From a virus: a stretch of 64,000 bases of DNA. The stretch is from positions 1 to 64,000 of IMG/VR virus record IMGVR_UViG_3300050120_000255; one strand, given 5' to 3'. Positions 1,855-58,944 of this stretch are shown piece after piece (positions within the stretch are counted from its first letter, which is position 1; the number at the start of each line of letters is the position of its first letter). The notes beneath the pieces were generated by a model. That model was not told the origin of the DNA and ran no database searches. It saw nothing but the letters and a program-made list of their open reading frames with translations. The position numbers were made by a program, and so were the translations under genes.

Positions 1855-2334
1855 ATGGCCAACCGACGCCACAGCGCTCGACGGATCAGACGACTCAGGA
1901 CTTATAATGTTCAGCAGGCGGCGACGGCCATCGGCGCAGCGCCGGGGACCGTGCGTCATTGGCATAAACACGGGTTGGAAGCCGTGGCCGGTCACTGGCC
2001 GCTTATCTTCCGCGGCTTGGACATTATCGCCTTTTTTAACAAGCGAAGCAGTGCGCGAAAGCAGCGATGCGGCCCGGGACGAATCTATTGCTTGCACTGT
2101 AGGGGTCCCAAGGCGCCCGCACTTGGGATGGTGGACTACCGGCCGGATACGCCGAAGCGCGGCATGCTCACAGGGCTCTGCCCGGACTGTGGCGGTCTCA
2201 TTTATCGGTGTACATCCCCCTCCAATCTGAAGGATGCAGCAGGCGATCTGGAGATTTCAATAAGGAGAGCGGAGTCACGCCTAGGCGAGACGCATGAACC
2301 CTACTCAAATCATAACTCCGGCCGGGAGGCTTGA
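1855..2334 (+). CDS. HTH protein with C-terminal zinc-ribbon-like motif
   Basis: 159 residues. Residues about 15-40 (TYNVQQAATAIGAAPGTVRHW) look like a MerR/excisionase-type helix-turn-helix. It is followed by two Cys pairs, CLHC and CPDC about 35 residues apart, a likely zinc ribbon. The gene starts 3 bp after the AlpA-like gene and ends 4 bp before the recombinase start, so the three are probably co-transcribed and this protein may be a DNA-binding partner of the recombinase. Exact role not known. Confidence 0.65.
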   Translation: MANRRHSARRIRRLRTYNVQQAATAIGAAPGTVRHWHKHGLEAVAGHWPLIFRGLDIIAFFNKRSSARKQRCGPGRIYCLHCRGPKAPALGMVDYRPDTPKRGMLTGLCPDCGGLIYRCTSPSNLKDAAGDLEISIRRAESRLGETHEPYSNHNSGREA

Positions 2335-2338
2335 ACCC

Positions 2339-3445
2339 ATGTCGAAATACTGCCCCGAAAACGTGAAAATGAAGCGCGCCTATGCTTTCTTTCTGGAGAC
2401 GGCCGACGGCAAGCAGGCCGTCACCGTAGACGCGGCATTGAAAGCCATTGAGCGCTTCGAAGCATCGACAAATCAGAAGCCGTTTCGCAAATTCCACATT
2501 GAACAAGTCCGCGCCTTCCGGAGCCGGCTCGTTGAAGAGACCGGTCGCAGCGGCAAGGGCTTGAGCGCCGCGACGATCACCTCCACACTCAAGCATCTCC
2601 GACATTTCTTTCTGTGGTTGTCACGGGAACCCGGCTTTCGCTCCGCCCTCAACTCCAATGATGCGAATTATTTCACGCCATCGGAGCAGGACCGGCGCAT
2701 TGCCGGCGCGCGGCGGGAACGGCCGGTGCCGACGCTGGACGAAATCAACGCGACGCTGGCGGCCATGCGTTTTGATACGCAAGTTGAGAAACGCGACCGG
2801 GCCGCGATCGCCTTCGCCATCGTCTCCGGCGCGCGCATCGCCGCCATCGCGAGTTTCCGGCTGAAGCATGTGAATCTCGAAGCGCGAACCATTTTTCACG
2901 ACGCTCGCAACGTGCAGACCAAAGGACGCAAGACGTTCACCTCTACTTTCTTTCCAGTCGGATCGGCGGTCGCGATCGTCGAAGACTATGTGCGCATGCT
3001 GAAGGAAGAACTCGGCTTCGGGCCGGATGATCCGCTTTTCCCGTCTACCCGCATGGGTCATGATGCGGACCGAAGCTTTGAGGTGCAAGGTCTGTCGCGC
3101 GAACCCTGGAGCGGCGGGGAGCCTATTCGGCGCATCTTTCGCACGGCCTTCACGGCAGCCAGCTTGTCCTACGCCAACCCACATTCGTTTCGGACGACAT
3201 TGACGCGCCTCGGCGAACGCCTTTGCCGCACGCCGGAGGAATGGAAAGCATGGAGCCAAAATCTAGGCCATGAAAGCGAGACGACGACCTTCGTCGGCTA
3301 TGGCCATGTGCCCACGCACCGACAGACGGAGATAATGCATACGATGTCGAAACCACGATCAATAATCTTGACGGATGGCCTCAACATAGCCGCGCTCGAA
3401 GCCTTCGTCGAAAGCGCGAAATCCAGTAGCACCGTTTATGGATAG
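2339..3445 (+). CDS. Tyrosine recombinase/integrase (left)
   Basis: 368 residues from the ATG at 2339, which has GAGG 9 nt upstream and avoids overlap with the previous gene. An N-terminal SAM-like core-binding domain (TITSTLKHLRHFFLWL) is followed by the catalytic domain. The family residues are visible: Arg in SGARIAAIASFRL, HSFR (HxxR), LGH and the nucleophile region TTTFVGYGHV. It cuts and rejoins DNA at specific sites. It lies about 1.3 kb inside the left att repeat, whereas a second integrase lies inside the right repeat, so this island carries two recombinases from different subfamilies. Confidence 0.9.
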   Translation: MSKYCPENVKMKRAYAFFLETADGKQAVTVDAALKAIERFEASTNQKPFRKFHIEQVRAFRSRLVEETGRSGKGLSAATITSTLKHLRHFFLWLSREPGFRSALNSNDANYFTPSEQDRRIAGARRERPVPTLDEINATLAAMRFDTQVEKRDRAAIAFAIVSGARIAAIASFRLKHVNLEARTIFHDARNVQTKGRKTFTSTFFPVGSAVAIVEDYVRMLKEELGFGPDDPLFPSTRMGHDADRSFEVQGLSREPWSGGEPIRRIFRTAFTAASLSYANPHSFRTTLTRLGERLCRTPEEWKAWSQNLGHESETTTFVGYGHVPTHRQTEIMHTMSKPRSIILTDGLNIAALEAFVESAKSSSTVYG

Positions 3446-4523: not shown

Positions 4524-6992
4524 CTATTCCACATCTTGGCCTTGTACTGATGATGCGTCGACGATCTTCGGAAGATTCTCTGCTAGAGCCAGAACCGTCG
4601 CAGCGGCACCTCTTGCCGCCATTCGTCTGAAATCATCAATATATTCCGCAAGGCCCACCGCCTCTTCCCCTTTGCCCTTTTGAAGGCTTCGAAAGGCATG
4701 TTCGTATCCGAGAAGAAGTATCCTCATTCCCAGGATGTACTTCTCTGTCACGACCGCGCGAGCGACGTCGCTCCGTTGTTCCCGTCGATATTTCTGATGA
4801 TAGGCGTTATCGTAGTTGATTTTGTACACTACCTCGTCACCTAACTCTGCGATGTTGCCGCCGTCCGTCTCGGTGAAATCGTCGGGCCATTTTTCGACCG
4901 AATATCCTTTTATTTCCCCCCCATCTTTTGTCAGCAGAATACAGCGGGGTAAGCCGTGAGTCGGTGCGGCGTCCCCGCCACCTTTCTGCTCCTTGCCTTC
5001 GCCCCCCTTTGGCGATTGAGGAGGATTGGCCGGTCTCCGTGGGTTGTCATCCGCTTGAGCGTCGACAATTCGAAGTGTGACCTCTTCGCTTGCGACCGCC
5101 GCGGGCATGGCGTCGTCCTGCAATCCGATCTGTAAATTGAAGGAAGCGCCCACGTTAATACTCTCGCCTGTCGGCGCGAAATACATCGTCAATCGACCGT
5201 CTTTAAGATGTTCGCGAACGGTGAAACTGCGTCGAATCTTGTCGTCTAGAATGATGCGACCTGGATTATCCGTGCGCTGCAGATATCCGTTTTCTGCATC
5301 CGTCCGCGCCGCAAGTGGCCTGCTCCGATTTACCGGAATCTCAAGTCCCTTCTTTTCGAACCGTTCCTCAAACCGGACGTAGGTAGGACTGTACACGCCC
5401 TCGAACTCAGCGCTTCCGGCTTCTTTGCCGCCATTGCTTCCGCCGGCGGAAGGAAGCCGAATCGTAGGGTCGCGGCTCGACAACAAGCCGGCTAAGTTGG
5501 GGTCCTTGTCGACGAGCTTTTGAAACAGGCTATTGCTCTCAGCCTTCGATGAGTTCTCCAGCTCCTCCGCAGCAACTTTTGCCTGAAGCTGCTTGAGCGC
5601 CTCCGACTCACGAATGGTTTGCGTGACCAGGTCGCGATAGCGCTCGCCATCCAAAGTGTTGCTGATATGCTCGCGGTCGCCCTTCCAGACCTCATTGTGG
5701 CCGGAGAATGAAAGCCCGCTGGCATCGACGATGATGACGACTCGATCTTTCAGAGCGGGGAAGCCGCAACTTTGAGAAAGATATCCTCGAGTTTGTTTGA
5801 ATTGGACCTGGCCGTTAACAGCATGGAACACTCGGTTGATCGAGTTTTGCGGTTTAAGCCAGCCTGGTATGTTACGCTTTAGAGGAATGGCGCTGATTGA
5901 GACTTCTCCGAGAATTGGATCAGTAAATTTTCCCACGAAAAGACGATCCTCGCCGGCCGCGTCCTCTTCATCCTCAATGCCGGCCTCCATGTGTGAGTTT
6001 AGGAGCAAAAATTCCATTCCAAAAAATCGGCGTGCGTCGACTCCCAATGCTCTGTCGGGGCCCTTCTTTTCGTCCGGTTTCTGTCGGAGGTCGAGAATGC
6101 GGAAGGGCAAGATGGTCTCGACGAGGTTTTCAATGAGCGCGTCACGAGATCCCTTAAAGCTCAGAAAGCGCGAACCGACTTGATAGTCGTAAAGTTTCAC
6201 GATGCTCCCTGTTTCGAGGTGAACGCGATCGTAACGCCTCCGCGAACCCGTTTGGAAAGGGAAGAGTTCGGCGGCCTGAAATCGCGAAATCTTTCCGCCG
6301 GGCATGACGAAAAACTCGGCGATCGGCATTTGATTTCGATCCCCAGGGCGCCGGCGCATTAGCGTCCACCCCCAGTCTTTTCCGTCATAGCGCCGGGACA
6401 CGATCAACTTAAACCAATGGCGGCCGCAATACCGCAGCACGCCCGACGAGCCCATGTTGAATTTGCCTTGTACGAAACCGATGCTTTTCTTGTGGCCCGC
6501 GCTTAGGGAAAGAAAGGTACGTTCAAAGTCGTCCGGATTCTGCCCCTCGCCGTTATCGGCAAACGTATAGCAAGGCAGACCTTCGGACTTCGACTTTGCG
6601 CCCGAAACCCCGATGACCAAATTTTTCTGGGCGAAATTTATCAACCATGGATCTTTCGGGTCCAAGTTGACGAGTTTCCCGCCCCGCATCTTTTTAATTA
6701 GGACATCGACTGCGTCGTACATGGTACGAGGAGCTTTTGGACCTTTAGGATCGATGCCTTTCTGATAGGCGTGCTTCAGCAGGACGGCGTCTACCATGTT
6801 GGTCATGAGCTCGGTCAGGGCCTTGCCGCCGTCCGAGGCTTGGTTGCCGGTGACATTAAAATTGGTCTCTCGACCGTCCAACGGCTTCCAGTTCTTCGCT
6901 TCCTTCATCTCGGGAATGGACCCAATGATCTCCTCGACGACTTTCTCAGACTCCGCCGAGAGAAGTTTTAGGCAAATTTCTTTTTGATCCAT
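4524..6992 (-). CDS. GHKL (MutL/MORC-like) ATPase of a restriction-type system
   Basis: 822 residues. The Bergerat ATP-binding fold is clear in the first 210 residues: N-box ELMTNMVDA, DxGxG-type box FADNGEGQNPDD, then GKFNMGSSGV (glycine-rich lid). A transducer (S5-like) domain probably follows, then a long Glu/Lys-rich region and a Gly/Pro/Lys linker near residue 665. Such ATPases clamp on DNA when ATP closes the dimer. GHKL ATPases next to cytosine methyltransferases and Vsr nucleases have been described as MutL homologues of restriction-modification systems and as relatives of eukaryotic MORC. Here the gene faces away from the methyltransferase and is preceded 13 bp upstream by the 75-aa gene. 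I infer a defence role; no nuclease motif is obvious in its C-terminus. Confidence 0.85.
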   Translation of the reverse strand: MDQKEICLKLLSAESEKVVEEIIGSIPEMKEAKNWKPLDGRETNFNVTGNQASDGGKALTELMTNMVDAVLLKHAYQKGIDPKGPKAPRTMYDAVDVLIKKMRGGKLVNLDPKDPWLINFAQKNLVIGVSGAKSKSEGLPCYTFADNGEGQNPDDFERTFLSLSAGHKKSIGFVQGKFNMGSSGVLRYCGRHWFKLIVSRRYDGKDWGWTLMRRRPGDRNQMPIAEFFVMPGGKISRFQAAELFPFQTGSRRRYDRVHLETGSIVKLYDYQVGSRFLSFKGSRDALIENLVETILPFRILDLRQKPDEKKGPDRALGVDARRFFGMEFLLLNSHMEAGIEDEEDAAGEDRLFVGKFTDPILGEVSISAIPLKRNIPGWLKPQNSINRVFHAVNGQVQFKQTRGYLSQSCGFPALKDRVVIIVDASGLSFSGHNEVWKGDREHISNTLDGERYRDLVTQTIRESEALKQLQAKVAAEELENSSKAESNSLFQKLVDKDPNLAGLLSSRDPTIRLPSAGGSNGGKEAGSAEFEGVYSPTYVRFEERFEKKGLEIPVNRSRPLAARTDAENGYLQRTDNPGRIILDDKIRRSFTVREHLKDGRLTMYFAPTGESINVGASFNLQIGLQDDAMPAAVASEEVTLRIVDAQADDNPRRPANPPQSPKGGEGKEQKGGGDAAPTHGLPRCILLTKDGGEIKGYSVEKWPDDFTETDGGNIAELGDEVVYKINYDNAYHQKYRREQRSDVARAVVTEKYILGMRILLLGYEHAFRSLQKGKGEEAVGLAEYIDDFRRMAARGAAATVLALAENLPKIVDASSVQGQDVE

Positions 6993-7440: not shown

Positions 7441-7623
7441 GTGAGCCGAGGCCGCACGTTCTCCACCGTCGAGGCGGCGAAGGAAATCGGTATTTCCAGG
7501 CCGACGCTGCTTCGGTGGATTCGGGACAAAAAGATCGCCGACGTGAAGCGGGACAGGAACAAGTGGCGCGTTTTTACAGTGGCAGACGTCGAGCGCATTA
7601 AGAGAGTGGCTGGAAATGAATAG
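7441..7623 (+). CDS. Small MerR/excisionase-type HTH protein
   Basis: 60 residues from GTG 7441, with GGGAGG 5 nt upstream. Residues 5-45 are a MerR-like winged HTH (TVEAAKEIGISRPTLLRWI ... WRVFTVADVERI). It overlaps the methyltransferase gene by 8 bp, so the two are translationally coupled. Its position fits a transcriptional controller of the modification gene; it belongs to a different fold class from classical Xre-type C proteins. Family assignment secure, role inferred. Confidence 0.75.
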   Translation: MSRGRTFSTVEAAKEIGISRPTLLRWIRDKKIADVKRDRNKWRVFTVADVERIKRVAGNE

Positions 7624-8848
7624 AGCCGGCAGGGCGAAGCACGCCGAGCCCAAGCGCGCTCCCCGTTTTATCGCTGTCGACTTCTTTTGCGGCGCTGGGG
7701 GGACGACCCGCGGGCTCATCGACGCGGGCGGCTATGTAATTGCCGGCGTTGACAAGGATATTCGCTGCGAGAAGACCTTCGTGGAGAATAATGCAAACGA
7801 GACGCTCGACTGCGCACAACCCCGGTTCTTGAATTACGACATATTTCCGAAGTCGGAAGGCTACCCGGATGGACAGCGTCGTGAGCTAACGCACGCGCTC
7901 GATGAGTTAATTCCACACTACCTAAGGAAGGCGCCGCGCGTTCCCTTACTATTCGCGATTTGCGCTCCCTGCCAACCGTTTACTCGCCTATCGAGGAAAG
8001 AGTTAAGCGAAGAAAGGAAGGAAGGGCGGGAGCGAGACAGCAATCTGTTGCGCAAGGCAGCCTCGTTTGTTCGTCGTTTCGAACCCGAACTTATACTTTC
8101 CGAAAACGTCGCCAGCATTAAGGACCCAAAGTATGGTGGGGTTTGGGACAACTTTAGGAAGACGTTGGAGAAAGCAGGGTATGTGACGGGATCCAAAATT
8201 GTCTGTACATCGCGATTTGGCATCCCCCAATTTCGCAAACGGTCGATCTTGATCGCTGTTCGGCGCGACCTCGTGCGCTTGGAACGCTTCGCAGATCTAT
8301 TAATGGATGAACTTCTTGTGCCTGAGGCGGATCCGAACGCTTCGGTGGTTTCCGTCGCCGATGCAATTGCATACCTGCCTCCTCTTAAGGCGGGAGCAGT
8401 TGATCCTGACATCGCGAATCACAGAACCCGGACGCTAAGCGATTTGAACATCAAGCGAATTGATTGCGCAAAGCCAGGGCAGTCGAATGCCTACATGGAA
8501 GACACCAAGTATGGCGATCTGTCGCTTGATTGCCATCGAAAGGTGAACAAGCGTCTTGGTGATAGATGTTTTAGCGATGTTTATACGCGCATGCACCCGG
8601 ATAGACCTTCGCCTACGATTACGACCAAATGTCACAGCATTTCGAACGGCCGATTTGGTCACTATGACGCCAAGCAAAACAGAGGCATCTCCCTTCGCGA
8701 AGCTGCCATACTTCAATCATTCCCCGACAACTACGTTTTTCATCCGACTGAACAGATCGAGCCGATCGCCCGGATGATCGGCAATGCTGTGCCTCCACGG
8801 CTTGCGCGATATTTCGCGAGTTATCTTGTCAATTCCATTGAGAGTTGA
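7616..8848 (+). CDS. dcm: DNA (cytosine-5) methyltransferase
   Basis: 410 residues. Conserved m5C motifs occur in order: motif I DFFCGAGGTTRG, motif IV APCQPFT with the catalytic Cys, motif VI SENV, motif VIII QFRKRSILIAV, a target-recognition region, the PSPTIT segment and motif X GNAVPP. It transfers a methyl group from SAM to C5 of cytosine in a specific DNA word; the target cannot be read from sequence. Paired with Vsr, which repairs the T:G mismatches that arise when 5mC deaminates, and with the GHKL ATPase in the same island. It overlaps Vsr tail to tail by 20 bp. Could be an orphan or the modification half of a defence system. Confidence 0.95.
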   Translation: MNRAGRAKHAEPKRAPRFIAVDFFCGAGGTTRGLIDAGGYVIAGVDKDIRCEKTFVENNANETLDCAQPRFLNYDIFPKSEGYPDGQRRELTHALDELIPHYLRKAPRVPLLFAICAPCQPFTRLSRKELSEERKEGRERDSNLLRKAASFVRRFEPELILSENVASIKDPKYGGVWDNFRKTLEKAGYVTGSKIVCTSRFGIPQFRKRSILIAVRRDLVRLERFADLLMDELLVPEADPNASVVSVADAIAYLPPLKAGAVDPDIANHRTRTLSDLNIKRIDCAKPGQSNAYMEDTKYGDLSLDCHRKVNKRLGDRCFSDVYTRMHPDRPSPTITTKCHSISNGRFGHYDAKQNRGISLREAAILQSFPDNYVFHPTEQIEPIARMIGNAVPPRLARYFASYLVNSIES

Positions 8849-9290: not shown

Positions 9291-10502
9291 CTAATGCTCG
9301 GAGCGCACCACAATGCTCCCACGCCGCAGTTCATCGCAGCGATCCGCCCACCACGCCATCATGCGGACGCGTTCGTCCCAAAAGTCGGCGCGGGCATAGG
9401 CCCGGCGGACGCTATCATTATCGACATGGGCGAGTTGACGTTCGATGGCGTCGGCGTTCCATAGGCCGCTTTCGTTCAAGATCGAAGACGCGGCCGAACG
9501 GAAGCCGTGGCCAGTCATTTCATCTTTCGCGAATCCGAGACGGCGAAGCGCCGCATTGATCGTGTTTTCGCTCATGCACCGCGCCGCCGAGCGGACGGAC
9601 GGGAAAAGGTACTTCCCGTGCCCGGTCATCGTCCGAAGTTCCCGCAAAATGGCGACGGAGCGGGAGGAGAGCGGCACGAGATGCGGACGCTTCATCTTCA
9701 TTTTTTCGCCCGGTATCGACCAGACGGCTGCTTCGATTTTGAACTCCGCCCATTCCGCCGCACGAAGTTCTCCGGGCCGAACAAAGGTCAGGGCAGCCAA
9801 TTCGAGCGCCACGCGCGTTTCCGGCGTCCCCTCATAGGTCGCAATGGCACGGAGAACACCGCCGAACGCCTTGGGCTCAATAATGGCTGCCCGATGCTGA
9901 ACTGTCGGAGTGGTTAGTGCGCCTTTTAGGGCGCCGGTAGGATCGGCCTCAGCGCGGCCGGTCCCGATTGCGAATCGGAAAACCTGCCCGATGGTTGCGC
10001 GGAGCCGCCGGGCCGTTTCATGCCTTCCACGCGATTCGACCCCGCGCAGGACGGCCAAAACTTCCGGCGCGGTGATCTCGGCGATTGGACGTGAGCCTAT
10101 CGCCGGCCGCGCGAGACTGAGCAGCCATTCGAGCTTACCCACGGTCCGATCAGCTTTCGACTCTCGCTTTTTCTTCTCCAGAAGCTCGGCGGCTATTGCA
10201 TCGAATGTATTCGCGGACGCGGTGGCCTTCGTTGCCTTGGCAAGCTGTTTCACAAGAGACGGATCCGTTCCAACGGCCAAAAGCCGTTTCGCCTCCTCCC
10301 GCGCGTCTCGCGCCTCGCGGAGGCCCGTCGCGGGGTAGACGCCGATCGCGAGTGTTTTTTGCCCCCCGCCGAACCGATAAGCGAGGCGCCACCGCTTGGC
10401 TCCATCCGGCATGATCCATAATTGCAGGCCACCGCCATCCGATAGCTTGACGAGGCGCTCGCTGGGCTTGGCCTTGCGAATTTCGATATCGGTAAGGGCC
10501 AT
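9291..10502 (-). CDS. Tyrosine integrase with DUF4102 N-terminal arm-binding domain (right)
   Basis: 403 residues from ATG 10502 (MALTDIEIRKAKPSERLV, the usual start of this family); an upstream in-frame ATG at 10580 would add 26 residues unlike the family. The order is DUF4102/Arm-DNA-binding domain, SAM-like domain, then the catalytic domain with Arg in ELAALTFVRPGELRAAEW, HGFR (HxxR) and a terminal QLAHVDNDSVRRAYARA nucleophile region. It sits just inside the right att repeat with the arm sites directly upstream, the typical layout of an island that integrates at a tRNA 3' end. Confidence 0.93.
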   Translation of the reverse strand: MALTDIEIRKAKPSERLVKLSDGGGLQLWIMPDGAKRWRLAYRFGGGQKTLAIGVYPATGLREARDAREEAKRLLAVGTDPSLVKQLAKATKATASANTFDAIAAELLEKKKRESKADRTVGKLEWLLSLARPAIGSRPIAEITAPEVLAVLRGVESRGRHETARRLRATIGQVFRFAIGTGRAEADPTGALKGALTTPTVQHRAAIIEPKAFGGVLRAIATYEGTPETRVALELAALTFVRPGELRAAEWAEFKIEAAVWSIPGEKMKMKRPHLVPLSSRSVAILRELRTMTGHGKYLFPSVRSAARCMSENTINAALRRLGFAKDEMTGHGFRSAASSILNESGLWNADAIERQLAHVDNDSVRRAYARADFWDERVRMMAWWADRCDELRRGSIVVRSEH

Positions 10503-10503
10503 G

Positions 10504-10552
10504 TTGGTATCTGTTTTGTTGGTATCGACGTTGTACCAACAAATGTACCAAC
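10504..10552. promoter_or_regulatory. Integrase arm-type site cluster (right)
   Basis: Two inverted copies (TTGGTAT at 10504-10510 and 10519-10525) face two direct copies (TACCAAC at 10534-10540 and 10546-10552). The last pair has the same 12-bp spacing as 1077-1095. They lie between the integrase start and the att core, so they may both bind integrase for recombination and repress its promoter. Confidence 0.55.
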
Positions 10553-10665
10553 TTTTTGATCGGATATCAACGCACGTCAAAGGACGCTATCGGACCAATG
10601 CTAGACCATAAACTATTTCTTTTCAGTATGTTACAGACATTCTCGGACGCTGCCGGACGGTGATT

Positions 10666-42251: not shown

Positions 42252-43712
42252 CTAATTCAGGTAGCGCTCAACCGTATGGACACCATTGTTCCGATCTTCC
42301 TGCTCCGCGGCGAGGCGGCGGTAGAATTCAACCATGCCGGACGTGTCAGCGGTCCCGAGGAGGTCGGTCGCGGCCCAGACATATGCGTCGGCGTGGTCAG
42401 GCGATCCCGCGCCCTTGTAGCCACCCTCTGAGAATGCGCAGAGCTGATCCTCGAGAATCGGAAAATCCCCGACGTGATGGATGCGGCCGGCAGCGGCGTG
42501 GACCGAGATCGGCTCGGCCCGGACGATCTTGCCTCGGGTCGCGGAAACGAGCCTAACGGGAACGTTCGGGTCGACTGCTTGTATGGTGGACCGAACCATC
42601 TCCCCGCCGAAGTTTGCCTCGGCTATGATCGCGTCGGCGCTGTATTGGTGGTAGAGAGCGACCGCCCTCGTCGCCCATTGCTGCGGGCCGGCGCGCAGCG
42701 ATCCGTCCTCAAGCACAAAGGCGTGGCCGATCATATTTTTGGCCATGACGACAATTCCGATTTCGTCCTTTGACGTGTCCTCTTCGTTTCGGGCGCCCGA
42801 TGGATCGACCGCGACGACCACGCGCTGGCGATCGGAGATGGGGATCTCGCTCGGCTCGACGCGGTTTTTCGCGATGCTTTCGTAGGTCCAGAGCGCGCCC
42901 TCGACCTCGTCGACGAACACCCCCTCAAAGAAGCGCTTGCGCTGCTTGTCCGGCTGGTAGGCTAAGCTATCCAGAAACTTTTTGCTCAGGTTGTGAGCGT
43001 TATCAACCGGATTGAGGTTCGCATAGACGTATTCGTGCGGATCGCGGAGCTTTTTCTTGCTGACCGGGTCGACCTTTTGAACGAAAAGCTGGTTGGTCCA
43101 ATGCGACTTGCCGACGGGGTTCAAATCGACGTAGGCGCGCTGCGGTATGGCATCATGCACCTGCGCCAGGCGGGTCATCGCGACAAGGAACGACGCGAAC
43201 GGGATCTGCGACGCCTCGTTGAGGAAAATCGTTGAAAACTCGGTGCCCAGGATCTTTTCGACGCGTTCTTTGTCGTCGAGGCCACCGATCCAGATCTGAG
43301 AGCCGTTCGGAAGCTGAAAATATCCGTCCTGCCGGGCTTCTTCGAGCTTGAGGCCGGGGAAACAGATCCGAACGACGTTGGGCAGCGTGTCGAGCGCCAA
43401 TGAGTGCCGCGCCGCGTTGCCGCGGAACCTCAGCATGGCGTGGCGTGTCCCCGCCGCCATCGCCGCGCGCTTGAGGATGGCCCGAACGATCAGAAAGGTC
43501 TTGCCGGAGCGCGTCCCGCCGTAGAGGCAGGAATGCCGCGCGACCGGCGCGGCTAGCGCCTCCCACGCCGCGCGCTGCTTCGGGCTGACTAGGATCTGCT
43601 CCGGTTTCAGCTCCGGCTTCCGGCCCTCCCCTATTTCGAGGAGTTGGGCTCGCGTCGCCTTTGGCCCGAATATTGACATTTCCTTCACGGACGGGAGGAG
43701 ATACTCGGACAC
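42252..43712 (-). CDS. Terminase large subunit
   Basis: 486 residues from GTG 43712 (TAGTG overlap with the small subunit). ATPase: Walker A GGTRSGKT and Walker B STIFLNEAS. RNase-H-like nuclease: VVVAVDPSG, AIIAEANFGGEM and SPDHADAYVWA with the acidic residues. It pumps and cuts DNA at the portal. Confidence 0.95.
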   Translation of the reverse strand: MSEYLLPSVKEMSIFGPKATRAQLLEIGEGRKPELKPEQILVSPKQRAAWEALAAPVARHSCLYGGTRSGKTFLIVRAILKRAAMAAGTRHAMLRFRGNAARHSLALDTLPNVVRICFPGLKLEEARQDGYFQLPNGSQIWIGGLDDKERVEKILGTEFSTIFLNEASQIPFASFLVAMTRLAQVHDAIPQRAYVDLNPVGKSHWTNQLFVQKVDPVSKKKLRDPHEYVYANLNPVDNAHNLSKKFLDSLAYQPDKQRKRFFEGVFVDEVEGALWTYESIAKNRVEPSEIPISDRQRVVVAVDPSGARNEEDTSKDEIGIVVMAKNMIGHAFVLEDGSLRAGPQQWATRAVALYHQYSADAIIAEANFGGEMVRSTIQAVDPNVPVRLVSATRGKIVRAEPISVHAAAGRIHHVGDFPILEDQLCAFSEGGYKGAGSPDHADAYVWAATDLLGTADTSGMVEFYRRLAAEQEDRNNGVHTVERYLN

Positions 43713-44326
43713 TAGAGACCCTTATCCTCCTCGCCGAAATTCAGCGTAATCGGATCTTGGTTGACCTTCTCGTCGATGCTGAACGCCACGCGCTCGAGGC
43801 CCTGGACCCGTGTGTGGATACGAGAGAGCTTCTCGATGATGTCGGACACCGATTCCTTGTTGTTCATGAACGGCGCCTCTATCTCAGATCCATCCACGAA
43901 GATCTTGATAGGCTTACCGTCCATATAGGCGTCGAGGCGCTCGGTCAGTTTCGAGGTGATGCCGCGCAGGCGCCGGAGGTCTTTTCGATGTTCTAGAACA
44001 ACGAGAACCGCCGACTGCGCCATCGCCTGAACCATTCGTTCCTCGTCTTCAAGGAACTTGGTGTTGGAGGGCGCGAGGTTGCGACCTTTGCCGTCATCAT
44101 CAGGTTTGTGCTCTTCGGCAAGCCGGCTTTGCAGAGCGATCTTAAAACGGTCTTTGAGATCCCGCTGCCAATTTTCAGACTTGGCGCGCTTGAGGAGCAT
44201 CTGCGTCGACATATTGAATTGTTTGGCGAGAGCCGCGTCGGAAATATTCCCGATACGCCATTTAAGCTCTACCGCCTTCCAATCGTACCGCGGCCGGGTG
44301 TCGGGAATTTTTTCAAGCGCCGTCAT
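43712..44326 (-). CDS. Terminase small subunit
   Basis: 204 residues from ATG 44326 (AGGA upstream). N-terminal HTH (WRIGNISDAALAKQFNMSTQMLLKRAKSENW), central helices (MVQAMAQSAVLVVLEHRKDLRRL) and acidic end NFGEEDKGL that could contact the large subunit. It recognises the packaging site. Overlaps both neighbours by 1-4 bp. Confidence 0.8.
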   Translation of the reverse strand: MTALEKIPDTRPRYDWKAVELKWRIGNISDAALAKQFNMSTQMLLKRAKSENWQRDLKDRFKIALQSRLAEEHKPDDDGKGRNLAPSNTKFLEDEERMVQAMAQSAVLVVLEHRKDLRRLRGITSKLTERLDAYMDGKPIKIFVDGSEIEAPFMNNKESVSDIIEKLSRIHTRVQGLERVAFSIDEKVNQDPITLNFGEEDKGL

Positions 44327-44670
44327 GAATCCAATCCTACGAAAAATACACATCTCGCGCCCGAGGGGCCGCTGTCGAATACCCGCATTTTAACGCGGTC
44401 AGCGGAGATCATCGGCCAGACCGGGGCGTGAACGGTTTGGGGAATTCCCCGCTGTTTGATCAGGCGTTGCGATTGGATCTCGGCCATGGCCTTACTTTCA
44501 GCGTCAGAGACGTGGACCGCCCACTGCAACTCCTCGATCGCCTGGTCGCGATAGATGTGACCGTGCTCACCAGCCATTGAGGGTAGAGTGAAGGTCTTCT
44601 GCACCATTACGAAAGGCCAGCTCGATCCGACGGCGCGGTCCTCGTCCTGCTTCGAATTCTTCCGGCTCAT
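44323..44670 (-). CDS. 115-aa protein upstream of the terminase
   Basis: Overlaps both neighbours by 4 bp, so it is translated in the late operon. SSWPFVMVQKTFTLPSMAGEHGHIYRDQAIEELQWAVHVSDAESKAMAEIQSQR has no recognised family. Possibly a packaging accessory. Confidence 0.6.
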   Translation of the reverse strand: MSRKNSKQDEDRAVGSSWPFVMVQKTFTLPSMAGEHGHIYRDQAIEELQWAVHVSDAESKAMAEIQSQRLIKQRGIPQTVHAPVWPMISADRVKMRVFDSGPSGARCVFFVGLDS

Positions 44671-46219: not shown

Positions 46220-46619
46220 AGAGGACCTCGCGCCAATGGAGGACCGAGCCACCGTCTGTCTTCGTCACGGCGCCGTCGGCAGGAACATGGGCTTTGTTCC
46301 ACAACGAGAAGAACAGTGGCGGCGCTGGCTTGGCGAAGTCCTCGTCTTCTTCCTGTTGAACGAATTCCTCGTCGACGTCCTCATGAATCCACTCAACCAA
46401 TCGATCGCGATTCTGGGAACGCCCTGAGATGTCGTATTCGAGGACCTGGGCGACCCAATCGATGCCTTCGCGAAGGATGAGGACGCGCAGCGGTCCGGAG
46501 ATCGGCGGCCTTGTCGAGTTCGCCGCGGGTGGCGGGGCGTAGTTGCCACAGGTCTTAGCGAGCGGTTGAAGAAGGGACATACGCACCAGCTCGCTCGGGT
46601 ACTGATTGACTTCGGTCAT
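46209..46619 (-). CDS. 136-aa acidic protein of the mini-protein operon
   Basis: From ATG 46619 (TGATG overlap). A beta segment (LRVLILREGIDWVAQVLEYDISG) precedes an acidic stretch (WIHEDVDEEFVQQEEDEDF) and an aromatic end FFSLWNKAHVP ... VLHWREVLYDH. The start LREGIDWVAQ.LEYDI resembles small phage proteins of unknown function. No family claimed. Confidence 0.6.
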   Translation of the reverse strand: MTEVNQYPSELVRMSLLQPLAKTCGNYAPPPAANSTRPPISGPLRVLILREGIDWVAQVLEYDISGRSQNRDRLVEWIHEDVDEEFVQQEEDEDFAKPAPPLFFSLWNKAHVPADGAVTKTDGGSVLHWREVLYDH

Positions 46620-46852
46620 CAAATTGATTTTCCTTTCCGCGGGCTCTCCGCCCAAACAGTTTGAAGACTTGCAAGACGGATCTCTCCCGCGGCGCGGCGC
46701 TTGCGGATGATCGCGACGGCCGAGACGTGCGCTTCGAGATCAGTGGCGCCGTGCAGCTTCGCGACCGACTTGAGGCCATCGCCCGTGAACGGACTCTGCC
46801 GCATCAGCGCGGCGACGTGCTGCTCGAAGGCGGAGCGGTTGAAGGCGCTCAT
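46619..46852 (-). CDS. Winged-helix-like mini-protein, copy 1
   Basis: 77 residues from ATG 46852. MSAFNRSAFEQHVAALM, core LKSVAKLHGATD, then VAIIRKRRAAGEIRLASLQTVW. It shares with the next five upstream genes the plan F-x-x-x-A helix, 'l..xA..xG' turn, Arg-rich recognition helix, R-x-x-G-E-(V/I) wing and a terminal Trp. Overlaps both neighbours (TGATG and 4 bp). Likely a small nucleic-acid-binding protein; target unknown. Confidence 0.65.
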   Translation of the reverse strand: MSAFNRSAFEQHVAALMRQSPFTGDGLKSVAKLHGATDLEAHVSAVAIIRKRRAAGEIRLASLQTVWAESPRKGKSI

Positions 46853-47061
46853 GTCGTGAACCACCGCTTCAATCCTCGGTCGTAAACAGCCTCGTCGGCG
46901 CGGCGCATCCGTTGCATGAGGGCGCTGGCGACTGCCCGCGCGTTCTGCGCGTCGCATCCGTACCGGATCGCGATGGCCGCGATGTCATCGATCAGAAGAG
47001 CCCAGCCGTACAGCCGGACCCGCACATCCTGGCGAAACTGGATTTGGTTGAAGGCGCTCAC
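46849..47061 (-). CDS. Winged-helix-like mini-protein, copy 2
   Basis: 70 residues from GTG 47061, which has GGAGG 7 nt upstream and a GTGA overlap with the previous stop. MSAFNQIQFRQDVRVRLYG starts like copy 1 (MSAFN). Core IAAIAIRYGCDAQNARAVASALMQRMRRADEAVYDRGLKRWF follows the shared plan but has lost the Gly of the wing. Adjacent copies 1 and 2 look like the most recent duplication at their N-termini. Confidence 0.65.
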   Translation of the reverse strand: MSAFNQIQFRQDVRVRLYGWALLIDDIAAIAIRYGCDAQNARAVASALMQRMRRADEAVYDRGLKRWFTT

Positions 47062-47276
47062 TTCGACACCTCCTGCCACGCATGAACCGTGGGACAATAT
47101 TTGACCTCCCCAGCCAGGCGACGGATGGAGAGATAGTTGTCGGCGGCCTTTGCCAGTAGCCAATCAGGGCAGCCGAAATTTCCAGCAATCCCCATTATCT
47201 CAGACCGAGTGAATGATCCGTCGGCGGTGCGCTTGCGCGCGGCCGCCTCGAATCCGAGCCTGTCGGACGAGGTCAT
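47058..47276 (-). CDS. Winged-helix-like mini-protein, copy 3
   Basis: 72 residues from ATG 47276 (TGATG overlap). LGFEAAARKRTADGSFTRSEIMGIAGNFGCPDWLLAKAADNYLSIRRLAGEVKYCPTVHAWQEV: the helix, NFG turn, long helix, RRLAGEV wing and Trp are all clear. The sequence around the NFGCP turn is closest to copy 2 (RYGCD). Confidence 0.68.
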   Translation of the reverse strand: MTSSDRLGFEAAARKRTADGSFTRSEIMGIAGNFGCPDWLLAKAADNYLSIRRLAGEVKYCPTVHAWQEVSK

Positions 47277-47509
47277 CACTTGGCGACCTCGAACCACATT
47301 GTTGCGCGGCCGGACCGCTCGTGAAAAACCTCGCCGTCCTTGCGGCGCTTTTGCAAGAATCGATCAGCTACCCGATCCGCTCGACTAAACGGAAAACCGA
47401 ACGTTTTGGCGAGCTCCCCCAGTTCTCGTTGCTGGCAGGGTCCGGCACGCAGCGCCTCCCGCGCCGCCTTCTCGAACCCGGCGTTGTCTTCTTGCAGGGG
47501 CGCGCTCAC
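47276..47509 (-). CDS. Winged-helix-like mini-protein, copy 4
   Basis: 77 residues. NAGFEKAAREALRAGPCQQRELGELAKTFGFPFSRADRVADRFLQKRRKDGEVFHERSGRATMWFEV, the most regular member of the set: helix 1 FEKAAREAL, helix 2 LGELAKTFG, recognition helix with QKRRKDGEV wing and MWFE end. Overlaps the upstream stop by 4 bp. Confidence 0.7.
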   Translation of the reverse strand: MSAPLQEDNAGFEKAAREALRAGPCQQRELGELAKTFGFPFSRADRVADRFLQKRRKDGEVFHERSGRATMWFEVAK

Positions 47510-47760
47510 GAACGAAGATCCAAGGACCAGATGGTCCCTAAATTCATCGTCCGGTACGGCAGCGTCAGTTTGCCTGCCTTGCGCAGCTTTCGGATCAGCC
47601 GGCGGACCGCGGCGCGCGGCGAGAAGCCGACATCATATTTGCGCGCCATGTAGACTAGGGCTTTGGTGGGGCAGGTCCATTCGCCGAGGCGGTGGATTGC
47701 GGCAGCTTCGAACGCCTCGACGCCGCCGATTTCGATGTCAGGCGTCAGGGCGGCGCTCAT
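47506..47760 (-). CDS. Winged-helix-like mini-protein, copy 5
   Basis: 84 residues from ATG 47760. GGVEAFEAAAIHRLGEW, LVYMARKYDVGFSPRAAVRRLIRKLRKAGKLTLPYRTMNLGTIWSL: same plan with LRKAGKL in place of RxxGEV. It has the most basic recognition helix of the series (RRLIRKLRK), suggesting DNA or RNA binding. Confidence 0.68.
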   Translation of the reverse strand: MSAALTPDIEIGGVEAFEAAAIHRLGEWTCPTKALVYMARKYDVGFSPRAAVRRLIRKLRKAGKLTLPYRTMNLGTIWSLDLRS

Positions 47761-48029
47761 GATCCGCGTCTCCAAAACCGGAGAAGTCGGCCCGTCCGGC
47801 GGAACATCGTTTTGTTGGACATGCAATCATGGAAGGCGACAAACCGCCCGTCCTTCAGGCCATCAGCAACGAACTTGCGAGCATCAATGAAGGCTTCCGA
47901 GAGGGACCCGGCGTGAAACTGTGTGATGACCGCAATGTCATTCACCTCGAACGGGCTGCTGCGAATGCGGGCCTCTACCAGTGCCTCGGCGATGATCTGA
48001 TTATCAGGCGCGGGAGCCGCGGCGCTCAT
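47757..48029 (-). CDS. Winged-helix-like mini-protein, copy 6 (divergent)
   Basis: 90 residues from ATG 48029. IIAEALVEARIRSSPFEVNDIAVITQFHAGSLSEAFIDARKFVADGLKDGRFVAF, then a Cys-Met-Ser segment and a basic tail (FRRTGRLLRFWRRGS). Matches the plan loosely (DGLKDGRFV as wing) and lacks the final Trp position of the others, so membership is less certain. Confidence 0.58.
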   Translation of the reverse strand: MSAAAPAPDNQIIAEALVEARIRSSPFEVNDIAVITQFHAGSLSEAFIDARKFVADGLKDGRFVAFHDCMSNKTMFRRTGRLLRFWRRGS

Positions 48030-48349: not shown

Positions 48350-48385
48350 GAAATCGAATCTCCTTTGTGATTTGGTTGCATTGCT

Positions 48386-48414
48386 ATCCTGACGTCTAAT
48401 AGACTAGGAGTCAA
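48386..48414 (-). promoter_or_regulatory. Leftward promoter of the mini-protein operon
   Basis: Read leftward: TTGACT (48409-48414), 17-bp spacer CCTAGTCTATTAGACGT, CAGGAT (48386-48391). The spacer contains AGTCTATTAGACG, near-palindromic (GTCTA-TTAGAC). Another copy, GATAGATAGG, sits just upstream at 48417-48426. Confidence 0.6.
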
Positions 48415-48426
48415 GTGATAGATAGG

Positions 48427-49058
48427 TCAGAGACCGATCTTTTTTGGGCCGGTTTGGGCCACGATTTAGGGGTGATTTAGGGGCGCTTTTGTTCGTTAAA
48501 AGTGATCAGAAATGAATCGAGGCTGGCTATTTCACCAAAACAGTCCGGGAAATCGGCCTGATCATGTGTAAAATCAACAATTTAGTCCCGATTTAGCCCT
48601 TAGAGTGACTCGGCCTGTTTGAGGGGCGCCGGCCGCGCGGCGGGACTGGTCGTATCCTGTTGATTTTGCTTCGAAGTCGGTATGCCGGCATCGGCCTCGG
48701 AGAACTTTTCTGTTAACCCGGATTTGGAGAACTCCGGGGTAAAAAATCCGAGGGGGAGTATCTTATTGAAACTATTTTGTAAAATAGGATTGGGATGGCC
48801 TAGAATAAAAATCAGGGCCTGTTTGACCGCATTGATCGCTAAGTCATTGGCACTATTTTGTACAATTGGGTTTGGGAGGTCGCGAGGAAAAATTGGGTAA
48901 ATAGGGTATCCACGGCGCCCAATCCGATCGATTCAAACGCCTTGCCCTCCTCGAGCCGCGTGTCGCTCGATATCGGCTTGCCTTCATCGAACAGGTATAT
49001 CTATCTATCCTATCACGTCTTTGTGATAACAAACGTGTTCCTAACCATCGAATAGATA
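48427..49058. other. Divergent control region of the phage
   Basis: About 630 bp with no convincing gene. It contains GATTTAGGGG twice (48463-48487), two diverged copies of a roughly 45-bp AT-rich block that both begin ACTATTTTGTA (48770 and 48852), a TATCAC/GTGATA inverted repeat near 49010-49030 and operator-like words CTATCTATCC and CATCGAATAGATAG (49003-49060). A natural place for early-promoter control or a replication origin; neither is proven. Confidence 0.5.
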
Positions 49059-49087
49059 GTGACACAATGCGCATAACAAAATACGGT
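49059..49087 (+). promoter_or_regulatory. Rightward early promoter
   Basis: GTGACA (49059-49064), 17-bp spacer, TACGGT (49082-49087), with CATCGAATAGATAG directly upstream of the -35 and GTCTATCTTG directly after the -10. The first rightward gene begins at 49123. Operator-like words on both sides rather than in the spacer. Confidence 0.55.
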
Positions 49088-49122
49088 CTATCTTGTAGCA
49101 ACGAACGAAGCGAGCAAAGACA

Positions 49123-49320
49123 ATGAACGGCATGTTTCAAGCACTCTGCCCGGATAGCCGAAGCATATTGGCAAGCATCTACATGAACATAGAAGTTTGG
49201 CAGGACTGGTTAGACTTTCTCGCCGTCATTGACAAGCGCGGATATGGTGACTTCATGTCTTTCGCGGAATGGTGCGGTGTAGAGCCGTACCGCGCCGACA
49301 CTGGTATAATTTGGTGCTAA
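49123..49320 (+). CDS. 65-aa protein, first rightward gene
   Basis: MNGMFQALCPDSRSILASIYMNIEVWQDWLDFLAVIDKRGYGDFMSFAEWCGVEPYRADTG... acidic/aromatic, helical. The ribosome-binding site is weak (GCAAAGACA). A small early takeover-type protein is possible; no family recognised. Confidence 0.5.
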   Translation: MNGMFQALCPDSRSILASIYMNIEVWQDWLDFLAVIDKRGYGDFMSFAEWCGVEPYRADTGIIWC

Positions 49321-53952: not shown

Positions 53953-53982
53953 TTCAATCTAATAGAGCGAGAAACAAAAATG
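53953..53982 (+). repeat. 30-bp leader repeat, copy 2
   Basis: Identical to 53631-53660. A third related leader (CGAATAGATTAGTTCAATC) lies at 54245-54263 before the clamp gene. Each gene of this operon start therefore has its own operator-like site. Confidence 0.8.
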
Positions 53983-54237
53983 AACATTTTCCTTTTGACC
54001 GCTGAACACTTCGAAATTCCGGGCCTGATCCAGCGGGCCTTCCATTCGGAGCTCGGCGCGGATGCGGAAGCGGCCGAACTGGTCAACCTCATGGTGGGTG
54101 ACTCGGACGACTCCGAAGTCGGCGAAAAGCCCGCGCCCTCGACTGCGGCGAACTGGGATACCGCGCTGGAATGGCTTCAAGGCATCCACGGCGCCGCCCA
54201 TTGCTACGTCGAAGTTTCTTCCTTGGCGGTGCTCTAG
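53980..54237 (+). CDS. 85-aa protein, paralogue of 56034-56300
   Basis: LLTAEHFEIPGLIQRAFHSELGADAEAAELVNLMV ... EKPAPS ... ALEWLQGIHGAAHCYVEV. The AEHF-x-I-x-G, RAF-x-SE and HGAAHCYV-x-V blocks are shared with the second copy. No catalytic pattern I recognise; the HGAAHCYV end may bind metal. Confidence 0.65.
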   Translation: MNIFLLTAEHFEIPGLIQRAFHSELGADAEAAELVNLMVGDSDDSEVGEKPAPSTAANWDTALEWLQGIHGAAHCYVEVSSLAVL

Positions 54238-54287: not shown

Positions 54288-55586
54288 ATGAAATTCCAGA
54301 TTAACGCCAAATGCCTCGCCACCGCCCTCGCCGCCTCTTGCAAGATTGCCGACAAGCGCGGACATTCCCCGGTTTTGACCATGATCAAGGTCACGGCGCG
54401 CGCATCCTGCATCGAGCTTACCGCCACGGATCTTGACGTGTGCCAGACGGTCCGCGTTCCTGCGGACGTCCAGACCCAAGGCGTGACTCTTCTCCCTGCG
54501 CATTCGCTTCTAGCCTTCGTTAAGTCGCTTCCGGTTAGCGGAACGATGCAGCTTGAAACCGTCGAGACGGAAAAGGATTACCACGGCGCTGCGCAACGTG
54601 ATGGCGCCGCCCTCCATATGAGCGATGGCAAATGGCGCTTTGCAGGCAAGCACAAAGCGGAATGCTCCGACAGCGAAACGAGCGGCGAAGCGGCGAAGAA
54701 ATATTGCGAGCTTGCAAACATCGGTCCGGACTCAAAGGGAGTCGCAACGGTTTCTTGCGGCTCGGCGCGCCTCAACCTGAATTATGGCGCTATCGGCGAT
54801 TGGCCGGAGTTTAAAGGCCTTCCTATGGACTGCGCAGCGTTCGAACTTGCCGCGCCTGATTTCCTTAATGCTCTTGACCGGACAACCTTCGCGATATCGA
54901 GCGAAGAAACCCGATACTATTTGAACGGCATTTTTCTACACGTGACCGAAGGTCTTTTACGCCTGGTCGCGACGGACGGTCACAGAATGGCGATTGCTGA
55001 TTTACCGGCGCCTGCGATCGAAGGAATGTTTCCCGCTGTCATCGTGCCACGGCTCGCGGTTGAAAACCTGAATCGTTTGCTCAAAAAGGTAACGGCGCCG
55101 GTTCGCGTTGCGATCTCTGGTCCGCAATCGACCTGGACAATCGAAGCGCGCGACGGAACCGTCACAACGTTCGAGACGAAGCATATTGATGGAACCTTCC
55201 CGGACTATAGCCGAGTTGTTCCCAGCGCAAACGACAAGTTTGCCACGATTGACCGCGCCGCTTTTTCCGACGCCGTTAAGCGGATCTCGTCGGGATTGCG
55301 CGGCTCCCAGTCTCGCGGCTCTGCGTTGAAACTCCTTTTCAGCCAAGGTGAGCTTAAAATTTCGCGCACAAATGCCGATATAGGCAACGCCTCCGAAAGC
55401 CTGCCTTGCGATTTCGACGCGTTCCCTTTGGAAATCGGTTTCAACGCAATGTATCTCGCCGACGCGATCGAAGCGACGGACGGTCAAGACGTGCTTTTGT
55501 CCTTGTATGATCCCGGATCGCCAACCTTGATTGCCGCCCGTCGCGGCGCCTCTAATCGTTCCGTCCTCATGCCAATGCGCATCTGA
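54288..55586 (+). CDS. dnaN: Phage-encoded DNA polymerase III beta sliding clamp
   Basis: 432 residues. DnaN pattern through all three domains: an N-terminal MKFQINAKCLATALAASCKIADKR, GRQ-equivalent lost, then AISSEETRYYLNGIFLH, LRLVATDGHRMA, DGTFPDYSRVVP and the C-terminal SVLMPMRI. Longer than bacterial clamps (about 370 aa) because of an insertion of roughly 55 residues around residues 105-165 (CSDSETSGEAAKKYC...). It would ring the phage DNA and hold a polymerase. A phage-owned clamp with no polymerase in the window suggests it recruits the host polymerase or one encoded further right. Confidence 0.93.
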   Translation: MKFQINAKCLATALAASCKIADKRGHSPVLTMIKVTARASCIELTATDLDVCQTVRVPADVQTQGVTLLPAHSLLAFVKSLPVSGTMQLETVETEKDYHGAAQRDGAALHMSDGKWRFAGKHKAECSDSETSGEAAKKYCELANIGPDSKGVATVSCGSARLNLNYGAIGDWPEFKGLPMDCAAFELAAPDFLNALDRTTFAISSEETRYYLNGIFLHVTEGLLRLVATDGHRMAIADLPAPAIEGMFPAVIVPRLAVENLNRLLKKVTAPVRVAISGPQSTWTIEARDGTVTTFETKHIDGTFPDYSRVVPSANDKFATIDRAAFSDAVKRISSGLRGSQSRGSALKLLFSQGELKISRTNADIGNASESLPCDFDAFPLEIGFNAMYLADAIEATDGQDVLLSLYDPGSPTLIAARRGASNRSVLMPMRI

Positions 55587-56033: not shown

Positions 56034-56300
56034 ATGACTAAGCAAGAGGTTTGGATTTTAGAAGCCGAGCATTTCAACATAGATGGGCGCATCGCGCGCG
56101 CGTTCGGCTCCGAGGCTGCCGCAAATCGCGAAGCTGTGAAGTTAATCAATGGACTGCTCGACGAAACAGATTGCAGCGAAAAACCCGCGCATACGACCGA
56201 CGATGAGGAATCCATGAGCGCAACCGCCGAATGGTTGGAGAACTATCACGGCGCAGCGCATTGCTACGTGCGGGTGGTCTCGGCACAAATCGAGGCATGA
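56034..56300 (+). CDS. 88-aa protein, paralogue of 53980-54237
   Basis: ILEAEHFNIDGRIARAFGSEAAANREAVKLINGLLD ... EKPAHT ... AEWLENYHGAAHCYVRV. Same three conserved blocks as the first copy. The leader CACTCTATCACATG differs from the first copy's but resembles the one before 56361. Confidence 0.65.
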   Translation: MTKQEVWILEAEHFNIDGRIARAFGSEAAANREAVKLINGLLDETDCSEKPAHTTDDEESMSATAEWLENYHGAAHCYVRVVSAQIEA

Positions 56301-58624: not shown

Positions 58625-58944
58625 TGGCGCCGCGCCGGACAAAAAAGGCTGAGGTTCCTACCCTGCCACAAAGTCATTTGATTAAAATAGACAGGCTTGG
58701 AATGCGCACGGTTGCTTACCTGTCAACATTCGTCGCAACGGCCGCTGGCCGTAACGAATGGCTGCCGCGCGACATCATCGGAAACGATGGTAAATCACTG
58801 GTTATTTACCGCGAGGGCGGGGACTATCACTTTGCGGGGTGGGAGCCGTGGCGAGACGGTCATTTCGGAGGCCGGTACGAAACAATCTTGGGCGCGCTGG
58901 CCTGGTTTGATTGGCTCGAAGCGGAAAACAAGGAGTCGTTCTGA
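58624..58944 (+). CDS. 106-aa early protein
   Basis: TGATG overlap at both ends. Basic start (APRRTKKAEVPTLPQ), then VAYLSTFVATAAGRNEWLPRDI, a DYHFAGWEPW turn and ILGALAWFDWLEAE helix. No family recognised. Confidence 0.55.
   Translation: MAPRRTKKAEVPTLPQSHLIKIDRLGMRTVAYLSTFVATAAGRNEWLPRDIIGNDGKSLVIYREGGDYHFAGWEPWRDGHFGGRYETILGALAWFDWLEAENKESF

Follow-up and report, generated by a model that had tools for sequence, protein, structure and literature searches.

Six consecutive genes on the minus strand of a soil phage, running from a first start at 48029 to a last stop at 46619, appear to encode diverged copies of one small protein, for which a stand-alone winged-helix domain is predicted. The window, i.e. 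the whole stretch of DNA analysed, comprised bases 1–64000 of a 78,490-base virus record. A sequence-only reading had described six consecutive genes of 70–90 aa at this place, each starting or stopping inside its neighbour; both points were borne out with exact coordinates, and the strand, on which that reading was silent, is the minus. In order, the genes have 90, 84, 77, 72, 70 and 77 codons and correspond to member 1 (47757–48029), member 2 (47506–47760), member 3 (47276–47509, GTG start), member 4 (47058–47276), member 5 (46849–47061, GTG start) and member 6 (46619–46852). They form one overlapping operon in which the overlaps are just 1–4 nt long, being 4 nt (ATGA or GTGA) at genes 1/2, 2/3, 4/5 and 5/6 and 1 nt (TGATG) at genes 3/4. 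The array is joined likewise to its flanks, by a 4-nt overlap with the preceding gene P7 (48026–48349, minus strand, 107 aa) and a 1-nt overlap with the following gene P8 (46209–46619, minus strand, 136 aa), which is followed by P9 (45989–46219, minus strand, about 76 aa). P7, which heads the leftward transcript, has a strong ribosome site (aaaggag) and a hydrophobic, transmembrane-like segment at its C-terminus. Within the array, clear ribosome sites were located only at members 2 and 5, so that the remaining members probably rely on re-initiation at the overlaps. It was also found that the first 15 nt of members 5 and 6 are identical except for the A/G of the start codon.

Common ancestry of the six products was examined by a leave-one-out procedure, in which a profile built from five members scored the sixth against 5000 shuffles of that sixth sequence. 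Members 2–6 scored 15.6–47.2 bits, a level reached by 0 of the 5000 shuffles in each case, and member 1, the most diverged, scored 7.9 bits, a value matched by 7 of 5000 shuffles. Against the array profile in the same test, P7, P8 and P9, which flank the array, were no better than chance, and P8 and P9 are regarded as non-members. Pairwise identity was 36% between members 3 and 4 and about 20–29% for most other pairs. In pairwise shuffles, members 3 and 6 were linked to all others with p values of 0.001–0.002, near the floor of the test, and the links of member 1 to members 3 and 6 lay at that floor (p=0.001). In addition, five of the six genes start with Met-Ser-Ala, compared with 3 of the 93 other predicted genes (Fisher p about 5e-6), and the GC content at third codon positions is 0.68–0.79, the codon-position GC fitting coding in this frame. 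From the leave-one-out profiles, the pairwise shuffles, the Met-Ser-Ala starts and the codon-position GC, we infer that the six are true paralogs; for members 2–6 these sequence comparisons place the relationship beyond doubt, and member 1, judged a paralog with less certainty, is the least secure of the six. The proposal of serial duplication followed by divergence is thus supported by the profiles and shuffles, the junctions and the common starts, and the profile alignment of the six products that had been suggested as a check gave similarity above chance, weakest for member 1. P7 resembled member 1 locally (p=0.014; p=0.04 when summed over the six members; hhalign P=0.078), which is suggestive of a highly diverged seventh relative.

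The residue plan attributed to all six products suited members 3, 4 and 6 reasonably well but the others only approximately; as an exact full motif it was overstated, being complete in only two to four members. F-x-x-x-A is present in members 2–4, and (I/L)xx(I/L)AxxxG in members 3–5, member 6 having V for the second I/L. RRxxGE occurs in members 3, 4 and 6, its counterparts being RRADE in member 5, LRKAGK in member 2 and GLKDGR in member 1, and the wing Trp is found in members 2–6, with Phe in member 1. The alignment columns that are conserved are F12, L30, L33, A34, A48, L52, R56 and W72, of which R56 is a basic residue at the end of helix 3, whereas the helix-3 columns 41–47 and 49 vary freely, except column 44, which is mostly Ala; burial was judged by how hydrophobic residues are distributed along the alignment. 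The six proteins are without exception basic, with pI values of 8.7–10.9 (10.2 for member 2 and 10.9 for member 6), and P7 and P8 are acidic. The net charge of helix 3 is +1 to +7 in members 2–6 and 0 in member 1, which also has an Arg-rich C-terminal tail. A conserved core combined with a varied helix 3 agrees with a single scaffold whose binding specificity differs from copy to copy.

Structures of members 3 and 6 were predicted by AlphaFold2 with the six-row alignment; as one small alignment was common to both, the two predictions are not independent. Member 3 was modelled with a mean pLDDT of 89.6 as three helices (residues 9–22, 27–36 and 41–57) followed by a β-hairpin wing (strands 61–66 and 69–74), and member 6 gave the same order of elements at moderate confidence (pLDDT 76.5). 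The two members were thus predicted alike and not as unrelated folds; members 1, 2, 4 and 5 were placed on this plan by profile. Both models stop 3–8 residues past the second wing strand and have no extra helix. Structural comparison of member 3 (Foldseek, VIA-align) returned mostly winged-helix DNA-binding domains, with a best Z of 9.1 and many values of 8–9, the best matches including PerR, MecI, NolR, CzrA, SmtB, AspA and Z-alpha (Z 8–9); the Foldseek matches were generic, none reaching E 0.001, and those of member 6 were weaker and mixed winged-helix. A weak structural match was nowhere counted as family membership. The winged-helix-like plan proposed earlier is supported by these models and matches, and the array proteins are predicted to be small single-domain winged-helix proteins. 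Winged-helix folds also serve RNA binding and protein binding.

Small winged-helix proteins are ordinary in phages. No model of Pfam or NCBIfam reached its cut-off for any member, the best score being that of AbiEi_1 to member 6 (16.6 bits vs a cut-off of 22.2), and among the PHROGs only member 3 gave a match, a short one of 29 residues to phrog_14380 (function unknown; E 0.0024), which the other five did not match. PADLOC, whose library holds defence proteins and not inhibitors, gave no match, the family profile drew only chance matches from the PDB sequences, and no tandem winged-helix paralogs in phages were found in open-access literature text. These results agree with the earlier statement that no described system of this form was known, in that a row of six diverged, end-overlapping copies was not found in the open-access literature. 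Single-protein scans of IMG/VR with members 2, 3, 4, 5 and 6 revealed no credible relative; such a scan needs an eight-residue peptide match and so reaches close relatives only. The sole IMG/VR matches, obtained with member 5, were rejected, since they consisted of an IDDIAAIA stretch within a 304-aa phage protein whose profile score was at chance and whose gene sits upstream of a capsid-like gene. In phage records, tblastn with members 3 and 6 gave nothing better than E 7, and neither a plasmid search with member 3 nor a DNA-level search of phages gave a match. About 1180 alphaproteobacterial genomes, comprising 9 with related terminases and 397, 397 and 385 from the family, order and class of Methylocapsa acidiphila, respectively, yielded no relative of the array among the candidates scored (the first 14 per genome in the large searches). 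The genome matches inspected were discarded as chance: one lies in a leucyl-aminopeptidase-like gene (L129), one is antisense to a hydrolase-like gene (L131), and one is antisense or out of frame (L121). Because of the eight-residue criterion in IMG/VR, the use of one or two members as phage and plasmid queries, and the limited number of genome candidates scored, these searches show the absence of close relatives only.

The large terminase subunit (42252–43712, minus strand) was used as the marker for placing the phage. Its closest relatives in cellular genomes are in prophages of Beijerinckiaceae (Methylovirgula and Methylocapsa; 59–64%), and the host is therefore probably a member of this family, which supports the assignment to an alphaproteobacterial phage made previously. 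Contig L008 matched the terminase at 100% and is the sole source of a relative of P8; it is of the same phage type and ends inside P8, short of the array. The next relative, L009 (terminase 65%), has P9 (L009:3570–3935, phmmer 1.8e-6), the gene preceding the small terminase and the two terminase genes, arranged as here, with other genes and no array between or before them; at the corresponding position it carries other cargo, e.g. an ASCH-like gene named by eye. The related phages of the same terminase type, many of which are fragments, gave no sign of an array; the search for similar arrays that had been suggested, run in these phages and among the candidates scored in the alphaproteobacterial genomes, found none. 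A tandem-paralog scan covered about 120 loci. Just upstream of the large terminase gene, L010 (2174–2828) and L018 (1726–2757) contain repeated DNA readable as repeated short frames, and the units upstream of the terminase in L010, L011 and L018 were rejected as a gene array, being probably repeated DNA with doubtful frames. In L013, an adjacent pair of similar 107-aa genes (8097–8813, phmmer 1e-33) lies downstream of the terminase and is unrelated to the array.

Leftward, the gene order is P7, the array, P8, P9, the small terminase subunit (43712–44353, minus strand, phrog_1206), the large terminase subunit, the portal, and tape-measure-sized and tail proteins; the array thus follows a single gene at the head of a transcript which runs on to the terminase genes downstream on the same strand. 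The rightward genes begin at 49123 and include that of the DNA polymerase III beta clamp (54288–55586). Between the two sets lies a divergent intergenic region of about 770 bases (48350–49122), AT-richer and a candidate operator/promoter region, in which a 48-nt direct repeat was located (48765–48812 and 48846–48893, 73% identical). The copies hold the dyads CTATTTTGTAAAATAG (48772) and CTATTTTGTACAATTG (48853), respectively, and each bears a CTATTTTGTA dyad. Pairs of ATTTAGnnnnGATTTAG were found at 48464 and 48580; the region has ATTTAG pairs. Allowing up to 3 mismatches, the dyad motif has 11 sites in the window vs 2.3 expected, several of them on the plus strand within the rightward gene region, and it overlaps a promoter-like hexamer pair; a search of the region for RNA families found none. 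These repeats and dyads could be operators or promoter elements.

The best reading of the array, which we hold tentatively, is that of a set of diverged DNA-binding regulators, each a single domain, that are coupled in translation; it draws on the predicted fold, the charge and the position of the genes. One ancestral small winged-helix gene would have undergone five or more tandem duplications close to where the leftward transcript begins, the copies diverging thereafter. Each product would be a lone basic winged-helix domain, too short to include a sensor or a long dimerisation helix, and the stop-start overlaps should couple translation, so that the six would be made together. On this reading the proteins would most likely bind DNA via helix 3, its basic end and the wing, as homo- or heterodimers, and would act as small regulators that differ in the sites they prefer. 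The closest candidate sites are the repeated dyads at 48350–49122, to which the array proteins may bind. The earlier suggestion of regulators with different targets fits the data better than that of an arms race, given the basic charge, the conserved core, the variable helix 3 and the position next to the divergent region. However, six regulators exceed the normal need of a phage at one switch, helix 3 of member 1 is without net charge, and the dyad motif, whose link to the array proteins is putative, may be a promoter element.

Diversified inhibitors serving anti-defence or host takeover, with the winged-helix scaffold binding host proteins and the duplicates aimed at different targets such as nucleases, defence sensors or RNA polymerase, are an unlikely but arguable alternative. 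Small orphan proteins with a conserved core and a freely varying surface would suit such a role, as would the other cargo held at the array position in L009. A precedent exists in the clustered, diverged AcrID1 paralogs of rudiviruses, where 26 of 35 AcrID1 homologs are in close proximity in four viruses, and HTH domains have been found in predicted anti-defence proteins (PMC11065993). Those clusters likewise consist of several diverged small paralogs close together, but they belong to archaeal viruses and encode a protein different from the array members. The basic charge and the Arg retained where helix 3 ends, on the other hand, point to nucleic acid, and the array shares its strand with the packaging genes into which it leads and not with the rightward, replication-type genes. 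Divergence driven by an arms race, as first proposed, is not directly supported, as nothing ties the genes to a defence target.

An accessory nucleoprotein or packaging complex, in which the six would co-assemble on DNA at fixed stoichiometry, for example near the packaging start, with every copy adapted to its own place in the complex, is likewise rather improbable. The coupled stop-start junctions would give a matched supply, the array lies upstream of the small and large terminase genes on the same strand, and the many structural matches include the centromere-binding proteins AspA and TubR. AspA (pNOB8; Z 8.9 to member 3) and TubR are also small winged-helix DNA-binding proteins. Each of them is a single gene with partner proteins, whereas no partner was seen beside the array and there is no sequence similarity. 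Moreover, since no trace of the array was seen in the related phages with this terminase type, though many are fragments, packaging is probably independent of it.

Neutral amplification, by tandem duplication near a recombination-prone junction and with little function beyond one or two members, is very unlikely. Further paralogous pairs are present in the same genome (53980/56034, 58911/60182 and 64739/65927), which indicates that this phage duplicates genes readily; however, all six frames are intact, the core is kept at 20–36% identity and a coding-type third-position GC is maintained, whereas neutral copies would have decayed. That the genes or their likeness are an artefact of a GC-rich sequence in which both strands carry long open frames, as might be thought from the long antisense frames, two of which a crude gene picker chose over members 5 and 6, is scarcely credible in view of the profile similarity far above shuffles, the third-position GC, the regular junctions and the confident fold of member 3, and is already refuted for members 2–6.

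The known systems closest to the array include the bacterial winged-helix repressors (BlaI/MecI, ArsR/SmtB/CzrA, PerR, MarR and PadR), whose DNA-binding domains have the same helix-helix-helix-hairpin order and size and matched member 3 at Z 8–9 with no sequence match. They differ in that the array domain is free-standing, with neither dimerisation nor sensor helices, and occurs in six tandem diverged copies. The Z-alpha domains (ADAR1, PKZ and viral E3-type), among the best structural matches, likewise stand alone, with 60–75 aa and a wing Trp. These domains contact Z-DNA via an Asn and a Tyr of helix 3; in the array this pair is not conserved, while five of the six have the wing Trp. It is also conceivable, though doubtful, that the array represents an expandable winged-helix cassette with a fixed core and a variable helix-3 face, diversified by tandem duplication to act on different host targets, be they defence factors or host promoters, and produced in a coupled manner, which if true would be a modular, library-like array of inhibitors or regulators, previously undescribed.

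To our knowledge, few phages carry one small domain as six diverged neighbouring copies. Should every copy recognise its own DNA site or host protein, the array would provide a natural series on how the specificity of a minimal winged helix changes, and would point to a layer of control or counter-defence in phages of Beijerinckiaceae that has gone unrecognised; if they are redundant, they would exemplify how readily small phage genes amplify.

Elsewhere in the genome, two paralogous genes of 85–88 aa (53980–54237 and 56034–56300) flank the beta clamp gene, and further paralogous pairs were located at 58911–60041/60182–60904 in the window and at 64739–65485/65927–67003 in the record. Two tyrosine-recombinase integrases of different types (2294–3445 and 9291–10580) lie within 8 kb of each other, and between them are an 822-codon GHKL-ATPase-like gene (4524–6992) and a C5-methyltransferase-like gene (7616–8848), both named by eye; a possible reading of this region is a nested integrated element, or else defence cargo.
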